From Chloroflexia bacterium (GTDB lineage: Bacteria; Chloroflexota; Chloroflexia; Thermomicrobiales; CFX8), in assembly GCA_030431755.1 (NCBI GenBank), contig JAUIIK010000001.1:1-42183 (forward strand): a stretch of DNA of 42,183 nt, read 5' to 3'. The notes under the pieces were generated by a model that saw nothing but the letters and a program-made list of their open reading frames with translations, had not been told where the DNA came from and searched no databases. This document shows, in pieces, positions 262 to 40,475 of the stretch (its first letter is position 1; every line of letters starts with the position of its first letter). The position numbers and the translations under genes are program-made.

Positions 262-1296
262 TCACGAATCCTTACGCTTTAAGAGCGGCGTCCGTCCTCC
301 TCCGCTCCACCAAATCGCCATTGGGAGGTTGTTTGCCACGTTGCGATAGGAACAGAAGAAGGTTCCGAAACCAAACGACTGGAGCTTCTGCCAACCGAGT
401 GGCCGCATTGAGCCAATCGTCGTTGTGCTCATACAGTCAAAGCCTACCTCCAGCATGGCCCCTTCAACCGTATCGCGGGACGTGGCACTCGAGAAAAGTG
501 TCTCCTTCGTTGGAACTCCATCGTCACGCAACCATTTTCCATTTCGCAGCTGTCTGATCTCAGACTCTCTGTCCTCCGCCGAATGGCGATGGCCAAAGCG
601 ATCTCTGTAGTTTCGCTCACTTGGCCAAAGGCACTCATACCGGGAGACAACCGACTTGTTGTGGTCATTCTCAATGTACTTGTCTGCAATCACACTATGG
701 TAGGTAACATCTTTTCGCCGAGCCTCCCTTCTTATGAAACGTTCCGCGTACTTGACTCCGGCCGTATGCGCGGCCAGCGTGAGTACCCATAGTTCGGATC
801 CGTTAGGTGCGTGTCGTGGGATCCAAGATGGACTGTTGGAATCCCCAGTACAGAGGTCGTATCTGAAACGGTTACCCGTATAGATGCAGTCGTCGATGTA
901 CACGTACTTCATCGAATCTCGATCACCGCAAAGTTGAAGATCCATTCCGAAGTCTTCTTCAAGGATCTCGTTGAGAAGCCTAAGCAGATCGACTTGGCTT
1001 CTCCCTTTGGTTTGTATGTTCAAGAAGCGAGTCTCTGACAGGGTTTCCCACGGGTCCGGATAGTTTGCCAAGTACGATTCAAGGAGCTTGCTAAGCGCCT
1101 CCTTGGATCTAGACCTCGAATAGTAGAACTCTGGCAAAATGTGGGCTAGTTCGGTAATGATGCAGTGCCGTTCTACAGGGTCAAATCGCTTCACCCACTG
1201 TTCAACATGGTCGGCCGTTGGTTGCGGGACCTCCCCACTCCGATAGTCGTGCAGCGTCTCCGCAATCGACTTACATAGCTCTTGTTGAGTAGCCAT
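262..1296 (-). CDS. phosphoribosyltransferase-like protein of conflict-system type (PRTase-CE-like)
   Basis: A protein of about 344 residues. The most telling motif is YVYIDDCIYTGNR (about residues 131-143), which matches the phosphoribosyl-pyrophosphate loop of type I phosphoribosyltransferases: a hydrophobic strand, two acidic residues, then a Thr-Gly turn. It is preceded by a GRSQ segment (about residues 98-101) that could be a second substrate loop. A helical N-terminal region of about 85 residues precedes the fold. Such stand-alone domains are known in predicted prokaryotic conflict systems (PRTase-CE). The ATG at 1296 has AGGTG six bases upstream; an in-frame GTG at 1305 is an alternative. 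It lies 37 bp after the DUF262 gene and before the NADAR gene, so a nucleotide- or base-modifying role is inferred. Base composition is lower in GC than the helicase gene, which suggests separate acquisition. Confidence 0.68.
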   Translation of the reverse strand: MATQQELCKSIAETLHDYRSGEVPQPTADHVEQWVKRFDPVERHCIITELAHILPEFYYSRSRSKEALSKLLESYLANYPDPWETLSETRFLNIQTKGRSQVDLLRLLNEILEEDFGMDLQLCGDRDSMKYVYIDDCIYTGNRFRYDLCTGDSNSPSWIPRHAPNGSELWVLTLAAHTAGVKYAERFIRREARRKDVTYHSVIADKYIENDHNKSVVSRYECLWPSERNYRDRFGHRHSAEDRESEIRQLRNGKWLRDDGVPTKETLFSSATSRDTVEGAMLEVGFDCMSTTTIGSMRPLGWQKLQSFGFGTFFCSYRNVANNLPMAIWWSGGGRTPLLKRKDS

Positions 1297-1333
1297 GTCA
1301 GTCACCTAGCCTTCGGAAATAGGGACGCAGCCA

Positions 1334-7478: not shown

Positions 7479-7479
7479 G

Positions 7480-10400: not shown

Positions 10401-10995
10401 TCTCGATGAACCAGTTGCCGGTTCTGGCGGCCTCTGCCTTATCGCGTGTGAGGATGTCGAATGGCAACTGAAACTTGTAGTGCAGCTCGTCTTGCCACTG
10501 CTCCACGAGACTTCCGGGACAGATAACTAGGCACCGGCGGAGGTCCCCACGCATCCACAGTTCCTTGATAAGCAGCCCGGCCATGATTGTCTTGCCTGCA
10601 CCAGGGTCGTCAGCGAGTAGAAATCTCAGCGGCTGTCGTGTCAGCATTTCTTCATACACAGCAGTAATTTGGTGGGGAAGCGGATCGATGAGCGAGCTGT
10701 GAACGGCTAACAGGGGATCGAAGAGATAGGCGAGGTTGATCCGCTGAGCTTCTGACGCCAGTCGAAACAAATGGCCGTCGGTGTCGAAGCGCCATGCTCG
10801 TCCTTGCACATCAATCTTGAGTCGGGACTCGTCATCACGAAAAAGGATCGTTTCGGCCGGCTGGCCGTTTGGAGGGCGGTAGGTCAGAGTGAGAGCATCA
10901 GATCCATGCCAGTCAACGTCAATGATCGTGACGACCTCGTTAGGTAGAACCCCTCGGAGGTTTGTCCCGCGCTTCAGTTTCTCTAGTGATGCCAC
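7480..10995 (-). CDS. SNF2-family helicase with C-terminal DUF3883 (DrmD-like)
   Basis: A protein of about 1171 residues. Superfamily 2 helicase motifs are in order: Walker A DDPGAGKT (about residues 129-136), DEAH (about 230-233), LLMTATPHN (about 264-272), and motif VI QRFGRIHRIGQ (about 598-608). A charged helical insertion separates the two lobes. The C-terminus has a DUF3883 (NOV_C) domain with FGWDIES and a later FIEVKGR, resembling a restriction-endonuclease-like core. This is the architecture of DISARM DrmD and related defence helicases, which translocate on DNA. The start is uncertain: the GTG at 10995 has GGAG six bases upstream, while a TTG at 11031 would add 12 residues but has no visible ribosome site. 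First gene of the leftward operon; the next starts one base after its stop. Confidence 0.88.
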   Translation of the reverse strand: MASLEKLKRGTNLRGVLPNEVVTIIDVDWHGSDALTLTYRPPNGQPAETILFRDDESRLKIDVQGRAWRFDTDGHLFRLASEAQRINLAYLFDPLLAVHSSLIDPLPHQITAVYEEMLTRQPLRFLLADDPGAGKTIMAGLLIKELWMRGDLRRCLVICPGSLVEQWQDELHYKFQLPFDILTRDKAEAARTGNWFIENDLVICRLDQVARNDDLQARLQQTDWDLVIVDEAHKMSASFFGGEVTYTKRYRLGQLIGGLTRHFLLMTATPHNGREEDFQLFMALLDADRFEGRFRDGVHSVDTDDLMRRLLKEQLLKFDGRPLFPERRAYTVPYTLSDAEARLYREVTDYVKEEFNRADALEEGGRRGTVGFALMILQRRLASSPEAIYQSLRRRKERLEARVRDEKLQRRGGEQRLSWLQDLPGMSDEMIDEMDDLPADEADEQEELVVDLATASRTISELESEIATLQRLEQLANTVRSSGTDRKWEQLSSLLQDNDDMFGPDGRRLKLVIFTEHKDTLYMLIERLRTLLGRDEAVVTIHGSMGREDRRTAQELFTQDRDTLILVATDAAGEGINLQRAHLMVNYDLPWNPNRLEQRFGRIHRIGQTEVCHLWNLVATETREGAVFDTLFRKLEQERESLGGQVFDVLGQVVFENESLRQLLVKAVRYGDQEDVRERLNHVVEGALDHQHLRELMETRSLVSNIMNSSIVQRVREDMERAEARRLQPHYIESFFIEAFRHLGGRIYEREPRRYEIVRVPGILRERDRMIGVREPLLRRYERVSFNKDQLNVPGQPMAEFVAPGHPLLDTTIHVILERYRSLLKQGTILVDPDDDGEDIRALYYLEHSIQDSRTDGDGNRRHVSRQLQFIEIDANSELRLAGYAPYLDYEPITDEQRQALEDLIEADWLTTDLETQIMNHAVQHIVPQHLREVRTRREDLVDRTSEAVKDRLTKEIMFWDNQAIQLRMQEDAGKKPRLNSTLARTRAEELRQRLRSRLQELEEERQLAPLRPNIAGGALVVPIGLLRLLEVSPPPEVITIDPAARKRVERTAIEAVMEREREFGFVPTDVGDQKFGWDIESRDPAGGPTRFIEVKGRVAGSETITVTKNEILAGLNKPDDFILAIVIVDGDRTEAPIYVTQPFDTEPDFGAVAVVYSIDGLVDSVPTAKV

Positions 10996-11445
10996 GCATT
11001 TCTCCAGACGGTGATGTTCCAAGACCTGCAAGGTCTGCTTGTAGTATTCATCGTCGCATACTGGAAATGCCTACTGCAAATGTTGCCCCAGTTCACCCGC
11101 CACTGGTGCTCACGGAGGCAGCCAGCGATCCGCCCTTGCTGTATTGGTGGGGAGTGTTGATTGACCGACGTGAATAGATCGGCAACAGGAATCGAGCCAG
11201 GTGTAGTGATCGAAAGTGTGGTTTCCAACGCAAGAAAGCACCGTGGCTTCTGCCATGCCCGGATGACGAAAGAACAACCCAACCCGAAGCAATAGCTCCT
11301 GTTCAAACCACGATCATCTATGAGCCTGACGGTGCGAACGTTCGCAAGTATCTGGTGGTCTTGGAGCCTATGATTGGATGGTTAAGAAAACGAGCCGACG
11401 TAATGCTGACACACACGCCGGCCAACAACGAAGGGGTGATCTTCG
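10996..11445. other. intergenic region between divergent helicase and recombinase genes
   Basis: About 450 bases separate the divergent starts of the helicase operon and the recombinase gene. Short open frames here show no recognisable protein. I found no promoter with both boxes close to consensus on either strand. The one notable structure is a perfect 14-bp palindrome at 11333-11346. This stretch should hold the promoters of both transcription units. Confidence 0.6.
11333..11346. repeat. perfect 14-bp palindrome
   Basis: The sequence TGCGAACGTTCGCA is perfectly self-complementary and lies 100 bp upstream of the recombinase start. It could be a binding site for a dimeric regulator or a recombinase. 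It contains GAAC/GTTC half sites but without the four-base spacer of Gram-positive LexA boxes. Confidence 0.5.
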
Positions 11446-12822
11446 ATGCTCTCCAAGTTTAGCCACAATGGCGGCCACGGTGCGGTTGGTTATGTCCGTG
11501 TTAGTTCAGACGAGCAGTTCGATGGGTACAGTTTCGACGCTCAGCAACATGCTATTCGCCACTATCGTGAAGCGCAAAGCTGGACGCTCGTCCAAGAATA
11601 TCGGGACGAAGCACTCTCGGCGCGGACCGACGATCTCAGCCGGCACCCTGCCTTCGCGGCAATGCTGGACGATGCAGAGTCGGGTCTGTTCGACGCGATC
11701 GTTGTCCATAAGCTTGATCGATTCGCACGCAATCTTCGAATTACCTTGGAAGCGCTCGACCGGCTGGAATCGGCCGGCGTAGGATTCGTGTCTACTTCCG
11801 AGAACATGGACTTCGCGTCCGCCATCGGAAAGGTGATGCCCCCCAACTTGGGGGCCCTCGCGCAGTATTGCTCTAATAATCTCAACCACGAAACGAAGAA
11901 CGGCAAAACGGAACGTAAGTGGCAAGGCTACTATAACTGTTTGCTCCCATTTGGCGTTGCGAAGTGTGACAGCGGGATACCTGTGCCGTGCCCCATGAAT
12001 CATACGGGCCTCGTGCTGGCGATTGAGACAGCGGCATCTGGCGTCAGCGATCGTGAGGTGGCGGAGACTCTCAACTCAGCAGGCTTTCGCACAACCGGAA
12101 ACCGCGGTGCCAACCCTTTCTCTAAGGACACGGTGTGCCATATCCTGCGGAATCGATTCTATGTTGGTGACTTGCCTGACGGTGCAGGTGGATGGATGTC
12201 GGACAAGCATGAGCCGCTTTTCGATCCTCTCTTGTTCAGTGAGGACAAACGCGTTAGAGCACAACGATCACTGAGAGGACATCGGGTTCGAAGATCAGCG
12301 ACGAAATACTCGATTTCAGGTCTGGCGATCTGTGGCAACTGTAAATCGCCGATGCACGTCTACAATGCGGGGCGTGAGAACCCTCGTCTTGTCTGCTACG
12401 GGCGGACGCAGAGCAACGGCTGCACCGCGATGTCGGTGTTCCTATCGATCATCGAGGACACGATCGAGGAGTATCTCGACTCGTTTCATATCCCCGACGA
12501 CTACGCCGAGCAGATCGTCGTAATGTACGATGCATCGGAGGTGAACAAGGCTGACACCGACAAGTTGCGCGAGGCTGCAGAGAAGCGGCTGGTACGCCTC
12601 CAGGACCTGTACCTGATGGGTGACATCGACAAGATGCAGTACAAGGCAGAGCGCGAAGATCTCACAGCACAGATCGCGAACTTGAGTGACAGCCGCGATC
12701 AGTCAGGCGTCATAGCCCGTGCGGCAGCTTTTTTGCGCGATCTTCCGGCCGCGTGGCGGGCCGCGAATGACGCCCAACGCCACAAGCTCAGTCAGCTGTT
12801 ATTCAGTGAGGTGAGGATTTAG
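11446..12822 (+). CDS. large serine recombinase (site-specific integrase)
   Basis: A 458-residue protein with the three parts of large serine recombinases. The N-terminal resolvase domain has GYVRVSSDEQ (about residues 15-24) with the nucleophilic Ser20, and HKLDRFARN (about 88-96) with the catalytic arginines. A recombinase domain follows (about 160-280). A zinc-ribbon has CGNC (about residue 296) paired with a second Cys pair around residues 316-327, then a coiled-coil region (about 365-420). The ATG start has AAGGGG upstream. It points toward the tRNA-Asp gene, whose 3' end lies 94 bp beyond, and is divergent from the defence operon. It probably integrated or excises the island. A perfect 15-nt inverted repeat (CCCCCAA, one base, TTGGGGG) lies inside the gene at 11840-11854. 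No frameshift is seen, so the enzyme looks intact. Confidence 0.9.
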   Translation: MLSKFSHNGGHGAVGYVRVSSDEQFDGYSFDAQQHAIRHYREAQSWTLVQEYRDEALSARTDDLSRHPAFAAMLDDAESGLFDAIVVHKLDRFARNLRITLEALDRLESAGVGFVSTSENMDFASAIGKVMPPNLGALAQYCSNNLNHETKNGKTERKWQGYYNCLLPFGVAKCDSGIPVPCPMNHTGLVLAIETAASGVSDREVAETLNSAGFRTTGNRGANPFSKDTVCHILRNRFYVGDLPDGAGGWMSDKHEPLFDPLLFSEDKRVRAQRSLRGHRVRRSATKYSISGLAICGNCKSPMHVYNAGRENPRLVCYGRTQSNGCTAMSVFLSIIEDTIEEYLDSFHIPDDYAEQIVVMYDASEVNKADTDKLREAAEKRLVRLQDLYLMGDIDKMQYKAEREDLTAQIANLSDSRDQSGVIARAAAFLRDLPAAWRAANDAQRHKLSQLLFSEVRI

Positions 12823-12845
12823 GACCAGCAGTTAACTGGCCTGAT

Positions 12846-12883
12846 AGTCCAGCCCGACTTTGCGCCGTTCTTCTGGCTGGACT
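12846..12883. repeat. 9-bp inverted repeat between recombinase and tRNA-Asp
   Basis: AGTCCAGCC at 12846-12854 pairs perfectly with GGCTGGACT at 12875-12883 across a 20-base loop. It sits between the recombinase stop and the tRNA 3' end. It could be a weak terminator for either transcript or part of an attachment region. There is no T-run on either side, so a Rho-independent terminator is not well supported. Confidence 0.45.
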
Positions 12884-12915
12884 TCGAGTCTCGTCAACCG
12901 GAGTCTTTGGCACTG

Positions 12916-12989
12916 CGGAAGCGACGGGATTCGAACCCGCGATCTCCACCTTGACAGGGTGGCGTGTTAGGCCGCTACACTACGCCTCC
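12916..12989 (-). tRNA. tRNA-Asp (anticodon GTC)
   Basis: A complete 74-base cloverleaf can be folded by eye. The 7-bp acceptor stem is GGAGGCG with CGCTTCC (one G-U pair). The D stem is GTGT/ACAC, the anticodon stem CCACC/GGTGG, and the seven-base loop CTGTCAA gives anticodon GTC. The T arm carries the TTCGAAT loop. CCA is not encoded. The 3' end faces the recombinase and the defence island, as at tRNA-associated integration sites. Confidence 0.97.
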
Positions 12990-13046: not shown

Positions 13047-14630
13047 TCAAGCCGCGCTGGCGGCCGCACGGTGCCGTAGGCGGCGGATGATCTCTCGCTG
13101 CTCCGGCGTGACGATTCCAAGCAGCAGTCCACCTATCACGAACACCACAGCGCCGGCCAAGGCCGCGACGAGTGGGCGGTCGAGGAACGGCAACGTAGCG
13201 GCCGTCGCGAGCAGGCCGGCTGCTGTCGGGCGCAGGATCGCGGACAGCGACGCGCGGTCGTGGATGCGTACCGCCCGGCCACGAGACAGGATCACGAAGG
13301 CGGCGAAGATGACGACTTCGGTGGCGACGGTCAATCCTGCCGCGGCGAATGAGCCATATAGCGGTATGAGCAAGAAGTTGCCGGCGATGTTGAACGCCAC
13401 CGCCGCGCCAAACGCCGGCACGATGTCGCGCTGCCGGCCCTCGGCGATCAGGACGTACTGGAAGACGCCGTTGAGGAACGATAGCGGCGCGAAGAAGACC
13501 AGGATGCGCAAGAGTTCGGCTGAGTCGGGTAGGAACTCGTCGCCGGCCAGGATCCGGATCGCGGGCTGTGCCAACGCCACCGTCGCGACGACGATGCCCC
13601 AGGCGATCGTGACCAGCAGGTAGGCGGTGAGCCGGTTGGCACGCGCCAGGCTGGCCGGAGCGTGCGCCCGCCGGGACATCAGCGGGAACACCGCCAGCGT
13701 CGCGTAGGCGGGGATGATCGTGAGCAAGTTGATCGGCTTGAACGCCGCATCGTAGAGCCCGACCGCTTCCGACCCGCGAAAGGCTTCGACGATGAAGATG
13801 TCGAAACGGAAGAAGAGCGACAGCAACAATGCATTGACCAGCAGCGGGGCACTTTCGCGCGCGTACAGCCGCGCCTGCTCGATGTCGAGTGAGAACCGCA
13901 GTTCCGGGAGCTCGAGCCTGCGGTAGACGACCGCGAAGGCTGCGACCGAGATGAGCGAGCCAATAGTGGCCGCTAGCGCGATACCGACGATGCCGAGACT
14001 CGTGGCCGCCAGCAGGATCGCGACCGGTGCGCGCATAAGGTTCACGCCAACGTTGATGCCGGCGGCAATGTCCATCCGCTCGACGCCGTTGAGGGCCGAA
14101 TTGACCGCCTCGCTAACGCTCCCGGGGATGATCGTGAGCAGCAGGATTGCGACGGCCAGGAGCACGTCGGACGAGACATTCCCGAAGGCGACGCGGGCCG
14201 AGAGATAGATGGCAACCGGCACGACCGCGACAGCGAGGGCGAGCATACGGAAGAGCGCGGTGCCCCCCGTCAGCGTACCCGCATGTTCCCGGTCGCGGGC
14301 GATCTCGCGGGTGGCGTAGAGCCCAAGGCCGAAGTCTGACAGCGTCTTCACATAAAACCAGATGATGACGGCTAGCGCGTAGCGTCCGTTGCCGGCCGGT
14401 CCGAGCAGCCGCAAGACAGCCAGCGCGACGATGAGGTCGACGCCCCGCACGAAGAACTGTGACACGATCGGTAACGAGCTATTTCGGAGGATGAGCCAGG
14501 CCGCGTCGCTCTCCTCGCTGTCGCCCGGCCGTGCGCGGCGCATGACATACACGAGGCAGAGCAGCCCGGCGATCCCAAGCGCGCCGAGGAGAAGGAACCC
14601 CGGAGTCGAAAGGATGCGCTCACTGAGCAT
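13047..14630 (-). CDS. polysaccharide flippase (Wzx/MATE-like, MOP superfamily)
   Basis: A 527-residue integral membrane protein with about 14 hydrophobic segments. It has the layout of Wzx-type translocases: an N-terminal SLPIVSQFFVRGVDL block after an extra leading membrane helix (residues about 10-28), charged residues at the ends of helices (RREL-like loops), and a C-terminal pair of helices followed by a basic tail. Such proteins move lipid-linked glycan repeat units across the cytoplasmic membrane. Last gene of the nine-gene operon; its ATG overlaps the end of the small membrane-protein gene by 11 bp. The extra N-terminal helix before the flippase core is not typical. Function is inferred from fold-level similarity and context. 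Confidence 0.85.
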   Translation of the reverse strand: MLSERILSTPGFLLLGALGIAGLLCLVYVMRRARPGDSEESDAAWLILRNSSLPIVSQFFVRGVDLIVALAVLRLLGPAGNGRYALAVIIWFYVKTLSDFGLGLYATREIARDREHAGTLTGGTALFRMLALAVAVVPVAIYLSARVAFGNVSSDVLLAVAILLLTIIPGSVSEAVNSALNGVERMDIAAGINVGVNLMRAPVAILLAATSLGIVGIALAATIGSLISVAAFAVVYRRLELPELRFSLDIEQARLYARESAPLLVNALLLSLFFRFDIFIVEAFRGSEAVGLYDAAFKPINLLTIIPAYATLAVFPLMSRRAHAPASLARANRLTAYLLVTIAWGIVVATVALAQPAIRILAGDEFLPDSAELLRILVFFAPLSFLNGVFQYVLIAEGRQRDIVPAFGAAVAFNIAGNFLLIPLYGSFAAAGLTVATEVVIFAAFVILSRGRAVRIHDRASLSAILRPTAAGLLATAATLPFLDRPLVAALAGAVVFVIGGLLLGIVTPEQREIIRRLRHRAAASAA

Positions 14631-14796
14631 TCTGGATCTGGATCAGTATCAGGACGGCGACAGTGACGACCATGGCGCAGATTGGGAGGATAAAGAGGGC
14701 CCCGATGATCAAAATGCCGAGACGCGGATGACGGCTGAACAGCCCCTTGCGCGGTTCCTCTGCCAGTGACTCGACTTTCTCATGGGAGTCGGTCAT
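14620..14796 (-). CDS. 58-residue single-pass membrane miniprotein
   Basis: A small protein: a charged N-terminus (residues 1-22, including EKVESLAEEPRKG), a short RHPRLG turn and one long hydrophobic helix (about residues 29-54), ending in QNAQ. The start is fixed by context: its ATG shares the four bases ATGA with the stop of the glycosyltransferase gene, and its own end overlaps the flippase start by 11 bp. That double overlap argues for a real, translationally coupled gene. No family is recognised. It may be a small partner of the neighbouring flippase or glycosyltransferase. Longer in-frame extensions upstream would lie inside the glycosyltransferase gene and are not supported. Confidence 0.65.
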   Translation of the reverse strand: MTDSHEKVESLAEEPRKGLFSRHPRLGILIIGALFILPICAMVVTVAVLILIQIQNAQ

Positions 14797-15908
14797 ATGC
14801 CTGCACCGCCGACACGTTCGTAGACACGGAGCGTGCGCCTGGCAGTCTCTGTCCAGCTGAAGGCGGCGGCGCGTGCGATGCCCTGTGCGCTGAGATCGGT
14901 GCGGAGCGTTGCGTCGTCGAGCACACGACATATCCCATATGTGATCGAATCTACATCATCTCCATCAACCATCAGCGCGGACTGCCCGGCAACCTCACGG
15001 TGGGCCGCTATATCGCTGGCTACGACTGGGACGCCACGGCTCAGCGCTTCGAGCACCGGCAGTCCAAAACCCTCATAGTGGGAGGCGGCGACGAAGACGC
15101 TCGCCGCGCGGTAGGCCAGCTCAAGCTGCGCGTCCCCGGCATTCTCGTGCCAGGTGAGCCAACCCGCTGCCTGAGATTGCCGCAAATCCGCGACGATTTC
15201 GTCGTCCAGCCAACCCCGGCGACCGACCACCACAAGCCGCGCGTCAGGATGTCGTGCCCGCACGCCATCCATCGCCGCAAGCACCGTGCGGTGGTTCTTA
15301 CGCGGTTCGATGGTGCCGACCATCAAGATGATTGGTTCCACGCCGCCCTCATGCCGCTCCAGGTGACCTGCAAGCTTCACGCCGTTGGGCACGGCGACGA
15401 TGCGCTCTCTGGCGGCTGGATAGGCCGCCGCTACTTCGGCAGCCACCGACGCCGACACGGTGATGATCGCGTCGGCTCGAGCGATTGCGCGCGGGACGGC
15501 TTGCTGCAAGTAGCTGGCAAGTTTGGGATGGCAGTAGTTGGGATGGTGGATGAAGGAGAGATCGTGGATCGTGACGACTGTCGGGCTCGTGGTTGGTGGG
15601 AGTGTATAGTCCAGGCCGTGAAAGAGATCGTGGCCGCCGGTCCAGCGGTCGACTGCTATGGGTAGGCGCAGCCGTTGCCAGGCAGCGGTCATGACGCGCT
15701 CGCGCGCTGGCAGCCGCCGGACCTCTCGCCAGGCGCCCGGTGGCAGTGTGGAGAGAAGCTCCTCCGCTGCGCTCGCATCCGCAGCTACGCTCAGGATGAA
15801 CTGATGGTCCAGCGTCTCCTGGACGAGCGCGACAAGTAGCTCACGCGCATAGCGTCCGACGCCTCCCGACTGGACTGCTGCTGGCGTCGTGTCGATGGCG
15901 ATGCGCAC
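14793..15908 (-). CDS. GT4-family glycosyltransferase
   Basis: A 371-residue GT-B-fold enzyme. The N-terminal acceptor half has GGVGRYARELL (about residues 16-26), and the C-terminal half has a NDP-sugar-binding segment with GTIEPRKNH and the family motif EGFGLPVLEAL (about 277-287). These are marks of retaining GT4 glycosyltransferases such as mannosyltransferases. It probably adds a sugar to the growing lipid-linked glycan on the cytoplasmic side. The start lies 10 bp after the UPF0104 gene stop, and the stop overlaps the next gene by four bases. The sugar donor cannot be read from sequence. Confidence 0.9.
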   Translation of the reverse strand: MRIAIDTTPAAVQSGGVGRYARELLVALVQETLDHQFILSVAADASAAEELLSTLPPGAWREVRRLPARERVMTAAWQRLRLPIAVDRWTGGHDLFHGLDYTLPPTTSPTVVTIHDLSFIHHPNYCHPKLASYLQQAVPRAIARADAIITVSASVAAEVAAAYPAARERIVAVPNGVKLAGHLERHEGGVEPIILMVGTIEPRKNHRTVLAAMDGVRARHPDARLVVVGRRGWLDDEIVADLRQSQAAGWLTWHENAGDAQLELAYRAASVFVAASHYEGFGLPVLEALSRGVPVVASDIAAHREVAGQSALMVDGDDVDSITYGICRVLDDATLRTDLSAQGIARAAAFSWTETARRTLRVYERVGGAGI

Positions 15909-15918
15909 AAGTCAACTC

Positions 15919-16938
15919 CTAGCGCCTGCGGACAACAATCGACAAGATCGAGCCGACGACGATGACACTCCAGTAGGCGACGACCCGGTCAACGATCGCG
16001 ATGGTCGCCGCATCGGTGTCGCTGACATCGAGCAGCTTCAGCGCGATGATCGTGCCGCTCTCGACGACGCCCAGGCCGGCCGGCGTGAGCGGTATCACGG
16101 TGAGCAAGCTGGCAAGCAGGGCGACGAAGAGCGACTCCGGCCCGCTGAGCCCGACACCGAAGGCCGCCGCCACGCAGTATACCCGCAGCCCCTCGGATGC
16201 CCAGATGACCGCCGTCGCGCCGGTCACCGGGGCCCAGCCGTTGCGTGAGAACGATTGGATCACGCCACCCTGCAAGCGGTCGAACGGCTCCACAAAGCGG
16301 TCGGGCACGACACGCCGCAGCAGCCAGGGGTAGCGAGCGGCGAAGGCGAGCCCGATGACGCCGATGACGACGAGCGCGCCACCACCGGCGAGCGGCGCCT
16401 GCACATCGCCTGGCACGTCGCCGTGGAAGACGATCAGCGCCGACGTGACCATGAGGATCACGAGCGCCATCACATCGATGAAGCGCTCGGCGACGATCGT
16501 GCCAAGCGTGCTCGCGAACGAGACGCCAGCGCGTTCGCGCATCAGGTACCCGCGGTAGGCGTCGCCGAGCTTCGCTGGCACGAGGCAGTTCGCAAACCAG
16601 CTCAGGACGAAGATCTCGCTGAGATCACGAACTCGGTATGGCACGCGCGGATTGCCGTCGTAGATGCCGGCATTTCGCATGAGCACGCGCCAGCGCCATG
16701 AACGTAGCGGAAATGCGCCGTAGTAGGCCGCGAACGCGATAGCGATCCAGAACGGATTGCCGTCGGCTATGTTGCCGGCAATCTCACTGAGATCGAGATC
16801 GAGGTTGCGGAAGATGAAGAAGATAAGCGCCCCGGCAAGCGCGAACGAGACGAGCGTCCGTGGCGACTTAACGCGGTCGGCGAGCGACACCGGCGGGCGC
16901 GTAGGGGGCTGGTCGGGCGTTCGCGAATCCTGATCCAT
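15919..16938 (-). CDS. UPF0104 / LPG synthase transmembrane-region family protein
   Basis: A 339-residue polytopic membrane protein with about eight hydrophobic segments after a proline-rich cytoplasmic N-terminus. It shows features of the lysylphosphatidylglycerol synthase TM-region family (PF03706, AglD/UPF0104): SWRWRVLMRNAG (about residues 79-90), a conserved VPAKLGDAYRGYLM block (about 120-133) and a late LTPAGLGVVESG segment (about 293-304). Members include lipid flippases and proteins found in glycan loci. It lies four bases after the O-antigen-ligase-like gene. A role in moving a lipid-linked intermediate is inferred. Confidence 0.85.
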   Translation of the reverse strand: MDQDSRTPDQPPTRPPVSLADRVKSPRTLVSFALAGALIFFIFRNLDLDLSEIAGNIADGNPFWIAIAFAAYYGAFPLRSWRWRVLMRNAGIYDGNPRVPYRVRDLSEIFVLSWFANCLVPAKLGDAYRGYLMRERAGVSFASTLGTIVAERFIDVMALVILMVTSALIVFHGDVPGDVQAPLAGGGALVVIGVIGLAFAARYPWLLRRVVPDRFVEPFDRLQGGVIQSFSRNGWAPVTGATAVIWASEGLRVYCVAAAFGVGLSGPESLFVALLASLLTVIPLTPAGLGVVESGTIIALKLLDVSDTDAATIAIVDRVVAYWSVIVVGSILSIVVRRR

Positions 16939-16942
16939 GCGC

Positions 16943-18466
16943 CTAACCGTCCGTCGCTGACAACATGCGCCAGCGTTCCTGCCCGGCGATGACGAGCGCC
17001 CAGTGGAGGCCGATGATGATCCCGAGATTCAGGACGTGCAGATTCTCGAACATGTTATGCACGGCGACGGCGATGATCGAGCCAAACGCGCCGAGCACTA
17101 TCAGGCGAGATAGGCCGTCGACCGGGCGGGTACTGAGCAAGACCCGGAGCGCCAGGAAGATGACCGCGCCGAGCAGCGTGAGGTAGACGAGTAGTCCGGC
17201 AAGTCCAGTCTCGGCCAGCGTATGGATGTAGTAGTTGTGCGCGTGCCCTTGCGAGTTGCGGAACGATTCACGCACCGAGTATTCCTCGAAACGGACGTTG
17301 AAATTGCCGGCTCCGACACCCAGAGCGGGATGGTCCTGGAACATATCCCAGCCAGTCTGCCAGTGGGCCACGCGCTCGGCGGCGGCGAAGTTCTCATCGG
17401 TGATTGTCAGCGTGCGGACATCGAACGGCCGGATCTGTTCGGCGGCGTCGGTGACGCGGTCGCGAAAATCCTCCGGTATCAGCGCCCCCTGGCCGGTGAG
17501 CAGCACGGCGGCGAGTGCGACTGTGGCGGTAAGCGTGACGATCCGCGTCACCCGGCCGACGAGCAGAGCCATGATGAGCGCGGCAACGCCAACGCCCAGC
17601 CAGGCCCCGCGCGAGAGGCTTGCGACGATGCCACCGAGGATGACCGCCGCGCTGCCGGTGAATAGCAGCAGGTTCGCGAGATTGCGATAGAAGATCCGGC
17701 GCGCAGATTGGCTTGCCGCGAAGCCCTGGAGGCGTTCGCGGGAGTAGTTTCGTAGCGCACGCCACGTCTCGCCGGCATACCAGAGCGCCATCGCCGCGGT
17801 CGGAAAGAGGGTCATCTCCAGGAACCCGGCATACGAATTCGGGCGGCCGAATGTGCCGTAGGCGCGGGACACGCCAGAACTAACTTGAAAGGGACCAAGA
17901 CCCACAACGCTTTGGACTACGCCGACGGTGGCTTCGAAGACGCCGCCGGCCGCGAGGAGGCCGACCGTCATCACAAGCCTGCGGTCGCTGCCTCCAACAA
18001 CGATCTGTAGCGCCAACCAGAATGCGGCCAGCGCGACGCTCCAGCGCGCCACCTCGGCTAGTCCGGCTGTCAACGACTCGGCCTGAAGCGTGCTGACGAG
18101 CATTAGGACAATGAGAAGCGCGAATGGCGCCAGGAGCACGTGGCCGCGCAGCTTGCGGTCGCTGTTGACGTAGGCGATGAGGAACCCGGCAAAAGCGACT
18201 GGGAACATCAGCTGGGTGAGCGTGACCGGTAGCGTCGCGCCTTCAGACCCGAGCCGCTGGAATGGCACCGACAGGATCAAGAACGCGAAGCTGATCAAGG
18301 GATACCGCGCGAAGAGCAGCCCGATCCCGGCCAGGACCAGGAGCGCAGGGAAAAGCACGAGCAAGCCCCGTTGTGCGAGGGCCAGCACAAAGAACCCGAA
18401 GACGGCTGCAACGGCAAGCAGCGCCACCGGCTGGCGCAGCGCAGCCGCGTCGAAGCGGCCGGTCAT
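16943..18466 (-). CDS. O-antigen ligase/polymerase-like membrane protein (copy 1)
   Basis: A 507-residue polytopic membrane protein of the Wzy_C/WaaL type. About 11 hydrophobic segments flank a large external loop (about residues 340-410) that contains the characteristic HNYYIHTLAETGLAGLL block near its end; the conserved His in it is part of the glycan-transfer site in the family. It would polymerise or ligate glycan on the outer face of the membrane. The ATG overlaps the UDP-glucuronate decarboxylase stop by four bases. A second related protein lies in the same operon (19436-20815). Confidence 0.85.
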   Translation of the reverse strand: MTGRFDAAALRQPVALLAVAAVFGFFVLALAQRGLLVLFPALLVLAGIGLLFARYPLISFAFLILSVPFQRLGSEGATLPVTLTQLMFPVAFAGFLIAYVNSDRKLRGHVLLAPFALLIVLMLVSTLQAESLTAGLAEVARWSVALAAFWLALQIVVGGSDRRLVMTVGLLAAGGVFEATVGVVQSVVGLGPFQVSSGVSRAYGTFGRPNSYAGFLEMTLFPTAAMALWYAGETWRALRNYSRERLQGFAASQSARRIFYRNLANLLLFTGSAAVILGGIVASLSRGAWLGVGVAALIMALLVGRVTRIVTLTATVALAAVLLTGQGALIPEDFRDRVTDAAEQIRPFDVRTLTITDENFAAAERVAHWQTGWDMFQDHPALGVGAGNFNVRFEEYSVRESFRNSQGHAHNYYIHTLAETGLAGLLVYLTLLGAVIFLALRVLLSTRPVDGLSRLIVLGAFGSIIAVAVHNMFENLHVLNLGIIIGLHWALVIAGQERWRMLSATDG

Positions 18467-19413
18467 GCGCTGGCGACACCCTCGGCTTCGGCAAAGTACC
18501 GTATCGTCTCTTCGAGACCCGCGCGAAGCGGTGTCGATGCTGACCAGCCGAGTAGCTCAACGGCCTTGGTGATATCCGGGCAGCGGCGCTCGGGGTCGTC
18601 CTGGCGCATCGGGAGGTGGGTAAAGCCGGCGTCGGAGCCGCAGATGTCGGCGATCACTGTGCCCAGCTCATGGATCGTGCGCTCGTCGGGGTTGCCGAGG
18701 TTGATGATCTCGCCGGCAATGCCAGCCGTGTCCATCGTCGCGCGCATGCCCGCGATCAGGTCCGCGATGTAGCAGAGCGAGCGCGTCTGCAGGCCGTCGC
18801 CGTAGACGGGCAGCGGCTCGCCGCGCAGTGCATAGGAGATGAATGCCGGGACGACCCGGCCATCTTCTGGATCGTTGCGCGGTCCATAGATATTGAATAG
18901 CCGCACGATGCGGGCGTCGAGGTCGTACTGACGGACATATTCGATGGTTATCGACTCGCCGAAACGCTTGCTCTCGTCGTAGCAGGAGCGCGGCCCGACG
19001 GGATTGACGTTGCCGAAATAGCTCTCCGGCTGCGGATGCACCTCGGGGTTGCCGTAGATCTCGCTGGTTGATGAGAAGAGAAACCTCGCGCCGCGCTCAC
19101 GGGCCAGATCGAGCATGCGCTTGGTGCCGACGCTGTTGACCAGGTGCGTGTCGATCGGGTTGTTCATGTAGCCAATCGGGCTTGCGGGACTGGCGAGGTG
19201 GTAGATCTGGTCGACGTCGCCGAAGTCGATGGGCGCGTCGATGATATCGGCCTCGATGAGCGTGAATGCCGGGTTGTCTCTCAGGTGCGCGATGTTGATC
19301 GCGCGGCCGGTGATGAAGTTGTCGATGGCGAGGACACTGTGTCCGTCAGCCAGCAGGCTGTCGCACAGGTGGGACCCGACGAGGCCGGCTCCTCCGGTCA
19401 CGATCACGTTCAT
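18463..19413 (-). CDS. UDP-glucuronate decarboxylase (UDP-xylose synthase)
   Basis: A 316-residue extended short-chain dehydrogenase. It has the NAD-binding GGAGLVGSH (residues 7-15), HLASPASP (72-79), TSE (116-118) and the catalytic YxxxK pair Tyr145/Lys149. The block GNVNPVGPRSCYDESKR (134-150) is diagnostic of UDP-glucuronate decarboxylase rather than a generic epimerase. The enzyme converts UDP-glucuronate to UDP-xylose through a 4-keto intermediate, so the operon likely makes a pentose-containing glycan. A GAGGGAG box precedes the ATG. It begins 22 bp after the preceding gene, the widest gap in the operon. Confidence 0.92.
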   Translation of the reverse strand: MNVIVTGGAGLVGSHLCDSLLADGHSVLAIDNFITGRAINIAHLRDNPAFTLIEADIIDAPIDFGDVDQIYHLASPASPIGYMNNPIDTHLVNSVGTKRMLDLARERGARFLFSSTSEIYGNPEVHPQPESYFGNVNPVGPRSCYDESKRFGESITIEYVRQYDLDARIVRLFNIYGPRNDPEDGRVVPAFISYALRGEPLPVYGDGLQTRSLCYIADLIAGMRATMDTAGIAGEIINLGNPDERTIHELGTVIADICGSDAGFTHLPMRQDDPERRCPDITKAVELLGWSASTPLRAGLEETIRYFAEAEGVASA

Positions 19414-19435
19414 GGAGGAGACTCCCTCTCTGCAT

Positions 19436-20815
19436 CTAGCGTTGACGTCCGGGCGCGGACCAGGCGAGCCAGGCGAGGATCCAGGCGCTCATGGCAAGGT
19501 CGTGGACGAAGTACCCATTGTCGACCAAGCCCTGTGCGGCGGCGGCTGCCAGCGCCACGGTTGCAGCCGCCGCAAGTGGGTCGATTGAGCGCGTGCCGGC
19601 CGCGCGCGCGACACGGCTGGCCGACCAGGCGGTCAACGTCAGCGTCAACACGACGCAAACGGCCCCGATTATACCGAGGCGAACCCAGGCATCGATCAAC
19701 AGGTTGTGCCCGTGTGAGGTGAAGCGCTCGGCCCAGGCCGCCGGATCGACATAGCGGGGACTGTAGGTGTAGAGGAACTGATCTGGGCCGTACCCTGCGA
19801 GCGGACGGTCGCGAATCATCGCCAGCCCGGACCGCCAGATGTCGCTGCGTAGCGCCAGGCTGTCCTGTCCGGACCCGCCAATCGCCCGGTCGCGCGCCAC
19901 GACCGTCAGAGCCAGCGCCAGCACGCCCGCGCCAGCGAGCGCAACGAAGCGGATACGAGGGGCAAGCCACGGCCAGAGCACGATTCCGGCGACGATGAGC
20001 CCGAGGGCGGCGCTACGCGAGAAGGACAGTGCGAGCGCAGCGCCTCCGACGCCACACGCCAGCCAGGCTGGCAGCGAGCGGCTGCGCGTCAGCGTGAGCA
20101 GTCCGATTGCCAGCGCTACCGGTCGTAGCACGTACAGCGCGAAGGCGTTTGGGTGCGGGAATGGTCCGCTAATGCGCGTGACGCCACCCGCGGCGACACC
20201 AGCGCCCGAGAGCGCGTCGGTCAGCCCCCAGACCGCGACGCCGAGGCCGCCCAGCAGGAACGCCCCGGCGATGAAGACGCGTTCGACAGGGCGTTTCACG
20301 TGCCAAAGCAAGAGCACTATGAAGACCAACGGTTCGACGAGTGTCCAACGCAGTTCTCGGAGACCCGCCGCTCGGGCTTCAGTGTTGTCGATGGCAGCTA
20401 GCAGCGCGCCGCCCAGCAGCGCAAGCAATCCCAGCGAGACCAACGCCACCCGCCCAAACGGCGTGTTCAGGCGTTGGAAGCCAGCGAGGAGCAGCTGCCA
20501 GATGCCGCTCAGTCCGCGTTGATCGCTGATCCCGCGAGTGAGGACGTTGGCAACCGTGCCGACGCAGCACGCGACTAGGAGTAGTTCCGATGGCGCGATC
20601 GCCAGCTCGCCCGCTTGAACCGGGTGGTGATAGAGCGGGAGCGTCGCTGCCGTCGCGCCGAGAACGACGGTGGGCTGCCAGCTTGCAATCACGACGAACC
20701 CAACGGCGACGGCAAGGACGGCGAGCGGCGCAGCAGGGTCGGATACGTAGAGCGTGGCAAGCAACAACAGACAGCCAGCGATCGCGAGGGTCATGCTGCG
20801 AACGGTGTTAGGCAT
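19436..20815 (-). CDS. O-antigen ligase/polymerase-like membrane protein (copy 2)
   Basis: A 459-residue polytopic membrane protein, again Wzy_C/WaaL-like. Multiple alanine- and leucine-rich helices are followed by an external loop with a PLAGYGPDQFLY segment and the SHGHNLLIDAWVRLGIIG block near the C-terminus, the counterpart of the loop His motif in copy 1. The ATG at 20815 overlaps the preceding stop by eight bases and is preferred over an in-frame start 81 bp earlier inside that gene. Two such proteins in one operon suggest separate polymerisation and ligation steps. Substrate unknown. Confidence 0.83.
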   Translation of the reverse strand: MPNTVRSMTLAIAGCLLLLATLYVSDPAAPLAVLAVAVGFVVIASWQPTVVLGATAATLPLYHHPVQAGELAIAPSELLLVACCVGTVANVLTRGISDQRGLSGIWQLLLAGFQRLNTPFGRVALVSLGLLALLGGALLAAIDNTEARAAGLRELRWTLVEPLVFIVLLLWHVKRPVERVFIAGAFLLGGLGVAVWGLTDALSGAGVAAGGVTRISGPFPHPNAFALYVLRPVALAIGLLTLTRSRSLPAWLACGVGGAALALSFSRSAALGLIVAGIVLWPWLAPRIRFVALAGAGVLALALTVVARDRAIGGSGQDSLALRSDIWRSGLAMIRDRPLAGYGPDQFLYTYSPRYVDPAAWAERFTSHGHNLLIDAWVRLGIIGAVCVVLTLTLTAWSASRVARAAGTRSIDPLAAAATVALAAAAAQGLVDNGYFVHDLAMSAWILAWLAWSAPGRQR

Positions 20816-22190
20816 TGCGACGGTATGCTCTGGGATGGCCGGATTCAGCGGAGCGGCCGGGCGGCAAGGCGTTGCGGTTGCGGATATCCTGGACACGCGC
20901 TAGTCCGACGACCGCCATTGCTGCCGTAGCGACGCCAATCAGCGCTACCGCGCCGAGACCTGCGTTCCAACCGGCCGCCGGCTGACCCTTGACGAACAGC
21001 CCCGAGACTGCGATCTCCCCGCTGTTTGTCGCGATGAAGATTGAGTGACGTTCGGCGCTCAGTCCTTCGACGATCGGTAGCGCGGCGTCCTGCGCCTGAA
21101 GTGCGCTTAGATCAAGGATGTTGTCGGGCGGACCGGGATTGTTGACGTCCGGGTCGACCCATATGGACACTTCGCCGGCGTCTGGCGATAGCAATGCCTG
21201 GAGATAGATCGTCGTGCCGCTGAAGGTCGCCTGGAGCGGCGCGCCAGTGTCAGCAGTCCGCATGTATTGGACGCGACCGACCATCGACGGCGCCCAGCCA
21301 TCGCCAAATGCCAGCGCTGGCGCACCGACGCCGGAGAAGCCCTCCGGGAGCAGCTCAGCGGTCAACCGTGCCTCGCCCAGCGAGGCAGTCAAGCCAGGCC
21401 CGTCAACGTCCTGGACCGGCTGGAGCAGCACGAGGCCAACCTGCGCGGCGTCGCGGATCGCGCCGGTCGCCAGGTCGCGCTCCTCCGGCGATAGCGGGGT
21501 GGTTGTTGGAACGACCGGGAGCACGTAGACACTTCCGGCGAAGACCCTGAGCCTGCTGCTTTGCAGGTCGTCAAACGCCTCGACAGCCTGCGTCTCCACG
21601 ACAGCACCGGTCGCTAGCGGCAGGAGGACGCCGCCGGTAGCCGGTTGGTTGGCACGCACCTGCTCGGCAATTGCCATGCCCCAATCATCCTCGGACTCGG
21701 GATCGCAGGAGGTGACGTAGGCGATGCGGTCAGGATAACGGTCGCGCAGCGCGTCGACGGTCAGTTCTGCCAGGACGTCATTCTCGATCTCAGTGACCGG
21801 GCGTTCCAGGCACAGCGCGAGGTTGGTATCGACGGTCACCGCCATGACCTGATCGAGCGCTCGGAATGCGCTGTCGGCCTGGGCGTCGTCGGGCAAGGCG
21901 GCGATGATGTCTGCGTCAACGCGCACGATGGTCAATGCGAACGCGCTCGAGCCGCTTGCTCGCAGCCATTCGACGGCGTCCAGCGACGGTCGATCCGAGA
22001 GATCGACACCGAAGATGCGCTCGCGCGGAAATGGCAGTGGCTGCTGTGGGACCGGGTCAAGCGACGAGCCGATGCCGCCCTGCTCGGCGAAACCCTGCAT
22101 AAGCAGGGCCGCGATGGCGCAGACAGCAATGAGCGCCGCGGAGCGTCGCACAGCGCCGGTCGCGATGAACCGTTCCGTCGCCGCGTTCAT
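20808..22190 (-). CDS. membrane-anchored extracytoplasmic protein of unknown function
   Basis: A 460-residue protein with an N-terminal membrane helix (about residues 16-35), a long extracytoplasmic part and a C-terminal membrane helix (about 412-435) followed by a basic tail. The segment from about residue 60 to 220 alternates short hydrophobic strands and helices (IFGVDLSDRPSLDAVEWL, then repeated strand-helix units), resembling a TIM-barrel such as a glycosidase, but I see no clear catalytic acid pair. A beta-rich carbohydrate-binding-like region follows. Its start shares ATGA with the stop of the upstream glycosidase-like gene, which has the same two-anchor layout, so the two may work together on the glycan. 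No family name is claimed. Confidence 0.7.
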   Translation of the reverse strand: MNAATERFIATGAVRRSAALIAVCAIAALLMQGFAEQGGIGSSLDPVPQQPLPFPRERIFGVDLSDRPSLDAVEWLRASGSSAFALTIVRVDADIIAALPDDAQADSAFRALDQVMAVTVDTNLALCLERPVTEIENDVLAELTVDALRDRYPDRIAYVTSCDPESEDDWGMAIAEQVRANQPATGGVLLPLATGAVVETQAVEAFDDLQSSRLRVFAGSVYVLPVVPTTTPLSPEERDLATGAIRDAAQVGLVLLQPVQDVDGPGLTASLGEARLTAELLPEGFSGVGAPALAFGDGWAPSMVGRVQYMRTADTGAPLQATFSGTTIYLQALLSPDAGEVSIWVDPDVNNPGPPDNILDLSALQAQDAALPIVEGLSAERHSIFIATNSGEIAVSGLFVKGQPAAGWNAGLGAVALIGVATAAMAVVGLARVQDIRNRNALPPGRSAESGHPRAYRRNA

Positions 22191-23833
22191 GCCGGAATCC
22201 CGCGACGGACGGCAACCATGCCGATCAGGGCCAGCAATAGCGCCGCGCTTCCGGCGAAGAGCGTGCGCGGCGAGCGCTGTTCGTCGACCTGGATGCCGTC
22301 CAGCAGAAGTGGCGCAGCGCCACTGACCTCAACGTCGAGCGTTCGTGGTTGCGGCGCTTGATCGGCGGACCAGGCCGCGAGCTCGACTTGCTCCGCGCCA
22401 GCTTCGACGGCCACGGTACGCTCGACGTCACCGTGGCGCACGCTCAAGGTTGTTGCCTCTTGTCCCGGAGCCAGCAGGGCGAAGACACGATTGCCGCGCA
22501 CGCTGACGGCCAGTGCAGCGCCGGGCCCACCTATCGTGTACTGGCCACAGATCGCGGCCGCATCGGCAACAATCGGCCACGGCCCGAAGGCTCGTACCGC
22601 TGGGGCGAGATCGTTGTGGATACCCGGGTCGGCATAGCGCTGTTCAGCGCCTAGCGCGCTTAGCTCACGATAGAGCGGGCGCGGGGTGAATTCGACATCG
22701 ACGGCGCGAAAGTAGTAGTCGGAGCGGTCGAGTGAGATATCACCGACCTGCCTGAAGTACCAGGTGTTCGCGACACCGAACCAGGCATGGGAATCACGCA
22801 GATAACGGACGCCGTCGGCGGTCCACTCGGCCTGCTCGGTCTCCGGCACGCGCGACCACGTCAAGTCCTCCGGAGCGAAGGTGGCCGGGGCGGCGTTCCA
22901 CCCATACTCGTTGAGCCAGATGGCTTTGCCGGCGTCGCCATTGGCAACCGCGATCTGCCGGATCAGCTCAATGCGGCGGATGTTGAGCTGGCTGGAGTCT
23001 GGGGCAGCGTCGTAGCGCTGGTCGAGGCCGTAGGCGTTGGCGGCCATAATGTCGAAGGAGAGCCCAGCGCCGGCGTCATAGAGGGCCTGCCAGTAGCTCA
23101 GGTCGTCCATGGCCCGCTCCGAGTTCTCGGTCGTCATCGCAAGTGGCGCAGACAGGATGACGATGTCCGGATCGACGGCACGCGCGGCAGCTGCCGCGAC
23201 GCGCAGCAGCTCGGCGTAGCCTTCAGGATCGATCTCGCCGCCCCATTCCGCCGCGAGATTGGGCTCGTTCCAGATCTGGATGAACTGCACCCGGCCCTTG
23301 TAGCGCTCGACGAAGTCGCCAATGAACTCGGCGAACTCGGCGTTGTCGGACGGCGGGGCGGTGTGGTCGGAGCCGATCGGCCGCGCCCACTGTGGCGCGA
23401 GGTCGATCCTGGCGATGATGCGCAAGCCGTGGCGCTCGGCGGCGTCGACAATCGCGTCGTACTTTGCCCAGGCGTCCTGCTGGAAGACGGTGTCCCAGTA
23501 GGAGTCGCGCTCGGTCTCGATGGCCCGCCAGGCGAAGTGCTCCTTGATCCAGCCCACGCCGGCGTCGCTGGCCATCTCGAGCGTGCGCTCGCGTTTCCAC
23601 GGTTCGACCTCGCGTGCCAGAAAGGTATTGACGCCGATCGGGTTGACCGCCGTCCACGGGATTTCGGATTCGCGCGCGTCGACCCGTGGTGGCTCACGGT
23701 TCCACGGCTCGAGCCGGGCTGTCGACCAGACGAGAAAGATGACGGAGAGAATCGCGATGACCCGGAGGCCTGACAATAGTGGCGCTCGTCGCGACGAATG
23801 CTTGGATTGTTCCGGCGTCTGTTGCTGTGACAC
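22187..23833 (-). CDS. membrane-anchored clan-A glycoside hydrolase-like protein
   Basis: A 548-residue protein with an N-terminal signal-anchor helix (about residues 22-37), a (beta/alpha)8 glycosidase-like domain (about 60-390), a beta-sandwich-like region and a C-terminal membrane helix (about 525-545). Clan GH-A catalytic acids are visible: IQIWNEPN with Glu190 as acid/base, and AIWLNEYGW with Glu309 as nucleophile, as in GH39/GH5-type enzymes. It would cut or remodel a beta-linked glycan outside the cell. First gene of the exopolysaccharide operon, starting at a GTG; upstream lies a predicted -10 box. The next gene overlaps its stop by four bases. A role in trimming or releasing the polymer is inferred. 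Confidence 0.83.
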   Translation of the reverse strand: MSQQQTPEQSKHSSRRAPLLSGLRVIAILSVIFLVWSTARLEPWNREPPRVDARESEIPWTAVNPIGVNTFLAREVEPWKRERTLEMASDAGVGWIKEHFAWRAIETERDSYWDTVFQQDAWAKYDAIVDAAERHGLRIIARIDLAPQWARPIGSDHTAPPSDNAEFAEFIGDFVERYKGRVQFIQIWNEPNLAAEWGGEIDPEGYAELLRVAAAAARAVDPDIVILSAPLAMTTENSERAMDDLSYWQALYDAGAGLSFDIMAANAYGLDQRYDAAPDSSQLNIRRIELIRQIAVANGDAGKAIWLNEYGWNAAPATFAPEDLTWSRVPETEQAEWTADGVRYLRDSHAWFGVANTWYFRQVGDISLDRSDYYFRAVDVEFTPRPLYRELSALGAEQRYADPGIHNDLAPAVRAFGPWPIVADAAAICGQYTIGGPGAALAVSVRGNRVFALLAPGQEATTLSVRHGDVERTVAVEAGAEQVELAAWSADQAPQPRTLDVEVSGAAPLLLDGIQVDEQRSPRTLFAGSAALLLALIGMVAVRRGIPA

Positions 23834-23868
23834 TTAGCGATCCCGGCTAACGCTGGCCCCGACTGCGG

Positions 23869-23874
23869 ATTATA
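23869..23874 (-). promoter_or_regulatory. possible -10 box of the exopolysaccharide operon
   Basis: TATAAT on the minus strand lies 35 bp upstream of the GTG at 23833 in the 105-bp divergent gap. No good -35 box sits 16-18 bases away. The same AT-rich stretch (23870-23876) reads TTATATA on the plus strand, so it could also serve the divergent phosphorylase gene. Confidence 0.4.
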
Positions 23875-23938
23875 TAGGCGCTACTCGCCAACGGGTCGCG
23901 GAGTAGACTCAAGCCCGCAGCGACAGGGAGCATCGGTC

Positions 23939-40400: not shown

Positions 40401-40475
40401 CGCTCTACCGGTCGCCACAGCGCCCGTGAGCGAGGCGCACCGAAATCGCTCGAACTCTGAGGAGGAGTAGGTCGA

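Follow-up and report, generated by a model that had tools for sequence, protein, structure and literature searches.

A double-anchored protein beside a Wzy-type polymerase in a Thermomicrobiales polysaccharide operon, best read as a split-off and probably non-catalytic relative of polymerase-fused GH39 domains

The closest described system to the locus reported here is that of PslG, encoded in the Psl operon of Pseudomonas aeruginosa. According to the available part of PMC6813494, PslG is anchored in the inner membrane, belongs to the Psl synthesis complex and binds the Wzc-like protein PslE; its catalytic residues are described as needed for normal Psl output in the available parts of PMC6813494 and PMC9075953, and an earlier study cited in the former had found PslG dispensable. 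By analogy, PslG offers a precedent for a protein of glycoside hydrolase family 39 (GH39) tied to a polysaccharide synthesis complex. BcsZ, PgaB, WssD, AlgL and PssZ are further hydrolases or lyases of exopolysaccharide operons, and they resemble the present case in that a polymer-specific hydrolase is encoded with synthesis genes; they differ in being described as enzymes, and none is described as fused to a Wzy protein in the available part of that source (PMC6813494). Here we analysed the first 42,183 bases (the window) of a 113-kb contig, JAUIIK010000001.1, from the 5.1-Mb genome of a Chloroflexia bacterium of the order Thermomicrobiales, in which nine co-directional minus-strand genes run from 23833 down to 13047 in the order A, B, C, D, E, F, G, S and H. 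The proteins in question are A and B and the adjoining polymerase-like protein Wzy1 (gene C); a second such protein, Wzy2 (gene E), and a UPF0104 membrane protein (gene F) lie further downstream.

22187..23833, minus strand: A, predicted membrane-anchored PslG-type GH39 glycosidase, with a TIM barrel bearing E190 and E309, a sandwich like that of a carbohydrate-binding module (CBM), and N- and C-terminal anchors
20808..22190, minus strand: B, double-anchored protein with a degenerate barrel (residues 44-287) and a CBM35-like domain (residues 287-403), a putative remnant of a Wzy-fused GH39
19436..20815, minus strand: C, Wzy1, Wzy_C protein (Pfam Wzy_C 4.2e-20; profile match to the polymerase/ligase 7tpg at 3.4e-5) whose homologues are fused to GH39 elsewhere in the phylum

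Proteins in which a GH39 barrel is fused to Wzy1, usually with a CBM between them, were verified in at least 77 of 400 sampled Chloroflexota genomes (21 families; 17 in the same class). These proteins, of about 935-1240 residues, have the domain order GH39 barrel, CBM-like sandwich, Wzy1. Thirty-nine of them came from reading the neighbourhoods of GH39 hits (one, L156, is cut by the contig end), and 38 more from long frames among the matches listed in a search with a Wzy1 profile, all 38 of which held a GH39 barrel; the figure of 77 is a lower bound. Among the 79 named loci, 30 carry the fusion, examples being Chloroflexota metagenome-assembled genomes (MAGs), MAGs filed as Thermoflexus and Anaerolineae, and Oscillochloris. 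A structural model of a fused protein, built from 24 sequences with a predicted local distance difference test (pLDDT) score of 82, gave PslG as the top PDB hit (Foldseek 2.2e-19; Z 32.9), and no WaaL match was found among the matches listed, all of which were taken up by the glycosidase domain. Fusions in which no CBM was detected by profile may hold a diverged one, as the next hydrophobic segment lies at about the same distance in most of them. A Chloroflexota-like fused locus filed under an alphaproteobacterial MAG (L238) is probably misbinned.

B lies directly upstream of Wzy1, the place that the GH39 domain occupies in the fused proteins. In a barrel tree, the B protein L061, a long branch from family f3 of the order, fell inside the fused clade (42 rows, Shimodaira-Hasegawa-like approximate likelihood ratio test [SH-aLRT] support 99), and in a CBM tree the B proteins of families f1 and f2 (15 rows), f1 being the family of the window's genome, joined L061 with support of 96/97. 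By these placements, B is the counterpart of the fused GH39, and it is best read as a split-off remnant of the Wzy1-fused GH39 domain. We infer that the direction was fission in Thermomicrobiales and not fusion elsewhere; the fused label needs seven changes on the tree, at least four of which are forced by well-supported branches. Among the titles and opening abstract lines listed in searches of the open-access literature, none described a GH39-Wzy fusion, and neither its loss of catalysis nor B turned up in these searches; what is new here is the polymerase fusion together with an order-wide pseudoenzyme, whereas hydrolases in exopolysaccharide operons, PslG among them, were already known.

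The two catalytic glutamates (Glu) of GH39 were scored in the fused, split and standalone proteins after removal of one antisense open reading frame (ORF), L330_3461. Both Glu were present in 57 of the 77 fused proteins, the other 20 having lost at least one, in 2 of the 32 split B proteins that have a barrel, and in 64 of 67 standalone GH39 proteins, the three exceptions coming from one genus of family f19. Losses thus stand at 50/109 among Wzy-coupled proteins versus 3/67 among standalone ones, a comparison made with a Fisher test that ignores relatedness and is not used as proof, the counts being phylogenetically non-independent. Some rows retain the nucleophile only (QE, AE) and others the acid/base only (EN, EQ, ES, EH), and because these two kinds cannot share a first loss without a regain, at least two losses are implied. 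The idea of many independent catalytic losses was unsupported, since parsimony needs only two changes among the Wzy-coupled rows; the quick barrel trees were made without bootstrap and with the two catalytic columns included.

Protein A is a predicted PslG-type GH39 glycosidase with both catalytic Glu. A phmmer search of PDB sequences matched its residues 76-411 to PslG (4zn2/5bx9) at 2.3e-17; the Pfam matches to Cellulase (5.3e-5) and Glyco_hydro_39 (only 0.015) were both below the family cut-offs. E190 and E309 align with PslG chain positions 139 and 250 (counted by hand on the alignment), and the offset of 26 that turns these positions into E165 and E276 is identical at both, which places the two Glu of A in register. 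In the barrel tree A groups with other standalone GH39 proteins (34 rows, SH-aLRT 98; in another tree, 50 rows at 99), and the CBM tree did not decide whether its CBM falls in a single clade (approximately unbiased test, p-AU 0.505). A is like PslG in being a membrane-anchored GH39 protein of a polysaccharide operon with both Glu aligned, as the GH39 part of the fused relative is like PslG in structure. PslG, however, is a separate and active protein, while here a second GH39-type copy exists, which in other families is part of a fusion with Wzy1 and in Thermomicrobiales is split off, dead and reduced in size, and A and B also carry a C-terminal anchor.

The genome holds several other GH39-like genes. 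In three of the five f1 genomes, the window's own included, a second standalone GH39 protein that groups with the Wzy-fused clade and retains both Glu is encoded at a separate locus (L079:10038-11759, L081:6990-8678, L082:8522-10246), and it may be a duplicate that keeps the enzyme activity. The f19 genus mentioned above (L131, L137, L139) shows the reverse of the Thermomicrobiales pattern, its standalone A protein lacking the nucleophile (E to A) and its Wzy-fused copy being intact.

Protein B matched no family in Pfam or NCBIfam at E 0.1 and nothing among PDB sequences better than 0.18; a BLASTP comparison of A with B within the window gave only E 2.9, and a first scan of the genome contigs with B as query returned no matches. 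In an AlphaFold model of B (pLDDT 70, five sequences), helices at residues 8-39 and 408-441 flank a beta/alpha domain and a beta-sandwich. The barrel region superposed on GH35 and fucosidase TIM barrels (VIA-align; Z 10.7-12.1, root-mean-square deviation 3.8-4.4 over 212-222 residues of this pLDDT 70 model), and PslG appeared in the Foldseek list of the model at 1.7e-5. Residues 287-403 resemble CBM35, CBM6 and CBM36 sandwiches (Z 10.5-12.0), with CE2 esterase sandwiches reaching 12.9, and a profile comparison showed this sandwich and the domain at the C-terminus of A-type proteins to be homologous (probability 99.3%). B differs from CBM35 and CBM6 modules in that its domain has no sequence match to a CBM family and sits between membrane anchors. 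By sequence the barrel was not recognisable as GH39, hhalign aligning the CBM part only, and in the five f1 rows, read by eye, no conserved Glu or Asp was seen where the two probable catalytic strands end. With these residues absent, B is probably not a processing enzyme.

The B module was present in 55 of the 61 genomes of the order, including all 28 good ones (at least 90% complete and at most 5% contaminated), and its locus was read in all 55. Its form differs from family to family. In f92 it is a full GH39 protein with both Glu (2/2); in f3 it has a full-length barrel that has lost catalytic residues (30/30), every one of these homologues lacking at least the nucleophile and one retaining the acid/base; in the five f1 genomes it has a short degenerate barrel with no barrel similarity by profile; and in f2 it has no barrel and consists of anchor, CBM and anchor, 227-318 residues long in 17 of 18 genomes, the exception (L222) being an ORF called too long. 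A CBM-Wzy fusion with no barrel detected upstream (L069:277-2082) is a fused counterpart of the f2 form. The dead f3 barrel had ratios of nonsynonymous to synonymous substitution rates (dN/dS) of 0.06-0.34 (15 of 19 pairs with a defined dS), values for which the domain limits are approximate and many dS exceed 1; they suggest that the dead barrel is kept by purifying selection.

The neighbours of B also differ. Of the 54 loci that could be judged, only 11 have A immediately upstream of B (f1 2/4, f2 7/18, f92 2/2, f3 0/30), L054 being excluded as its contig begins inside B, and 4 of the 30 f3 loci having fewer than 600 bases upstream of B; A and B are therefore not an obligatory pair, and B as an obligatory partner of A is ruled out. 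Wzy1 is encoded in B's locus in all 24 loci of f1, f2 and f92. Among the 27 f3 loci with enough sequence, 12 keep Wzy1, 3 keep only Wzy2 and 12 have neither, and in 11 of these last 12 the UPF0104 gene directly follows B; L216 has a UPF0104 match within its locus, the position of which was not placed. This leaves in f3 a residual two-gene unit of dead GH39 and UPF0104 without Wzy (L192, L193, L198, L200, L202, L203, L205, L208, L214, L217 and L219). Beside B, the f3 loci showed neither a UXS nor a Wzx gene.

The remaining features of the operon in the window are as follows.

18463..19413, minus strand: D, UDP-glucuronate decarboxylase (UDP-xylose synthase; phmmer UXS1 1.5e-99)
16943..18466, minus strand: E, Wzy2, second Wzy_C/O-antigen-ligase-like protein (Pfam Wzy_C 2.1e-24)
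15919..16938, minus strand: F, UPF0104/LPG_synthase_TM flippase-like membrane protein (Pfam 2.2e-49)
14793..15908, minus strand: G, GT4 glycosyltransferase (Pfam Glycos_transf_1 3.1e-27)
14620..14796, minus strand: S, ninth gene, for a 58-residue protein with a single helix (the corresponding gap holds a similar small ORF in 3 of the 6 loci examined)
13047..14630, minus strand: H, Wzx-type flippase (Pfam Polysacc_synt 1.9e-29)
23834..23938, no strand: 105-bp divergent intergenic region between A and MTAP (from gene coordinates), a presumed promoter region

The initial annotation had proposed an export-coupled glycan operon of nine co-directional genes, and this description held in its parts. 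The ORF calls gave eight long frames and the 58-residue one-helix frame; the computed gaps, in rising coordinates, were -11, -4, 10, 4, -4, 22, -8 and -4 (with the Wzy1 start at 20815, a start codon picked by the junction), so that six of the eight junctions overlap or lie within four bases, as had been claimed. Both multi-pass O-antigen-ligase-like proteins, C and E, exceed the curated Wzy_C cut-off of 31.7 bits (72.5 and 86.4 bits, respectively), the predicted UPF0104 protein and flippase were recovered as Pfam matches, and each of the two consecutive proteins at 20808-23833 has, by hydropathy only, one hydrophobic segment near each terminus. The proposed division of labour between one polymerase and one attachment ligase (C and E) remains a plausible hypothesis; some f3 loci retain only Wzy2, or neither protein. 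The suggestion that A and B form a glycan-processing pair survived for A, the PslG-like member, and was not supported for B, in which the predicted large outer domain between two helices was recovered by modelling but looks like a barrel remnant with a CBM35-like sandwich, without the catalytic residues. As co-occurring partners the two did not stand: at the operon level, inside the order, they generally fail to occur together, the outcome that the initial annotation had named as counting against its reading.

The same arrangement of genes is found again in f1 and f2, in most cases next to divergent MTAP-FtsW-PBP genes, and in a shortened version in f92 and f3, and the layout is therefore more than chance. 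Elsewhere in the same genome are matches to initiating transferases (three), Wzz (three) and LCP proteins (two), and a UDP-glucose dehydrogenase-type gene (2.7e-61); since the genome has this gene and D matches UDP-glucuronate decarboxylase, xylose in the glycan is plausible. Outside the operon, window positions 262-12989 may be a mobile defence island, of lower GC in parts, with a PRTase-CE gene, a GmrSD N-terminal domain, a protein of 1493 residues that weakly matches Sacsin, a SNF2/NOV_C helicase, a serine recombinase and tRNA-Asp, and 39948-41678 encodes a protein of 576 residues that has two strong hydrophobic segments and matches no Pfam family.

With about even confidence, we favour the explanation that B is a non-catalytic, membrane-tethered scaffold that holds glycan for polymerisation or export, and its state suggests that it holds the growing chain instead of cutting it. 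The operon would make and export an envelope polysaccharide, probably containing xylose, by a Wzx/Wzy-type route: repeat units would be built inside by the GT4 enzyme and by transferases encoded elsewhere, Wzx would flip them, and Wzy1 would polymerise them on the outside. A, anchored in the membrane, would be an active PslG-type endoglycosidase and would trim the chain, or release it, at the membrane's outer face. B, tethered by two helices beside the membrane complex, may use its CBM35-like domain and the leftover barrel cleft to hold the lipid-linked or growing glycan for Wzy1, for the UPF0104 protein or for both, and Wzy2 may attach the polymer to an acceptor. Should PslG depend on its catalysis, the roles of A and B probably differ. 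Rather more tentatively, a PslG-type GH39 may have become the outer module of Wzy across Chloroflexota and lost the nucleophile or the acid/base in several lineages with the fold kept, turning from a cutter into a chain holder or length gauge that performs the role of Wzz; the Thermomicrobiales module would then have been freed as a double-anchored protein and eroded to an anchored CBM.

Several observations weigh against this explanation. The dead fused and f3 rows form one clade (51 tips, SH-aLRT 90) that contains the 50 coupled loss rows, and such a single dead clade could reflect few events or long-branch attraction. Two fused proteins (L262, L288) seem to have no CBM, and 26 of 42 unfused Wzy1 genes, taken from the matches listed, have no GH39 or CBM gene upstream (5 of them near a contig end), so that Wzy1 can work without B. 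The barrel of the f1 proteins is tied to GH39 by fold and position only, on a model in which the top-scoring barrels are GH35 and fucosidase and not GH39. In 15 of 27 judgeable f3 loci, B and UPF0104 are retained without Wzy1, and the 12 f3 genomes whose locus has neither Wzy gave no match to the Wzy1 profile at E 1e-10 (these genomes are mostly incomplete, and in some the best 26 candidates were scored). B therefore cannot be a subunit of Wzy1 only, and the candidate reading of it as purely Wzy1-bound is weakened. Finally, neither the activity of PslG nor its reported dispensability speaks for a dead scaffold.

Wzz proteins carry a helix at each end of an outer domain, and their gene lies next to Wzy. 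B could, by analogy, be such a co-polymerase and set the modal chain length, a proposal that we consider unlikely. It shares the two-helix topology, the large outer domain and, in every f1, f2 and f92 locus, the Wzy1 neighbour; no Wzz match was found among the operon proteins, and 22 of the 61 genomes of the order, 21 of them f3, have no match to PF02706, 20 of these 22 having B. Yet B itself does not match PF02706, its predicted fold is a barrel remnant with a CBM35-like sandwich, Wzz-type matches lie elsewhere in 39 of the 61 genomes, and B persists in the 12 f3 genomes without a Wzy1-profile match.

We judge it no more and no less probable that the lasting partner of B is the UPF0104 protein, B receiving or presenting a glycolipid that UPF0104 flips or modifies, with the tie to Wzy1 secondary. 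The UPF0104 gene is in B's locus in 46 of 54 loci of the order, the remaining 8 running into a contig end a short way downstream, and it is still next to B in the 11 f3 loci from which both Wzy genes have gone; on these counts no other gene of the order accompanies B as constantly. Outside the order, however, B's relatives are covalently joined to Wzy1 and not to UPF0104, and many fused loci have no UPF0104 gene nearby. That B is still an enzyme, acting on the polymer with a relocated or different catalytic mechanism, is improbable: the barrel fold retained in the f1 model, the low dN/dS of the f3 barrel and the intact Glu pair of the f92 proteins speak for it, but the likely catalytic strand ends of f1 hold no conserved Glu or Asp and the whole barrel is absent in f2. 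Least probable is that A and B are a generic tandem of carbohydrate-binding envelope proteins hitch-hiking in the operon with no role in polymerisation: the several other GH39-like genes of the genome speak for it, but B is retained across the order, keeps its fixed place upstream of Wzy1 and has covalently fused counterparts in 77 genomes.

The simplest version of B, that of f2, is presumably the one found in Thermomicrobium and Sphaerobacter. The walls of these genera are protein-rich and unusual, as described in the available parts of PMC2615216 and PMC3035262. Why polysaccharide operons encode a hydrolase for their own product is a question raised in the available part of PMC9075953. A polymerase that carries a covalently attached hydrolase domain, to all appearance active in certain families but dead elsewhere, allows cutting to be told apart from holding, and both become testable. 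How Wzy polymerases decide when to stop is a question of the field. If a PslG-type module has indeed become a chain holder or length gauge of Wzy in Chloroflexota, the fused GH39 domains and B would be a previously undescribed class of polymerase co-factor.

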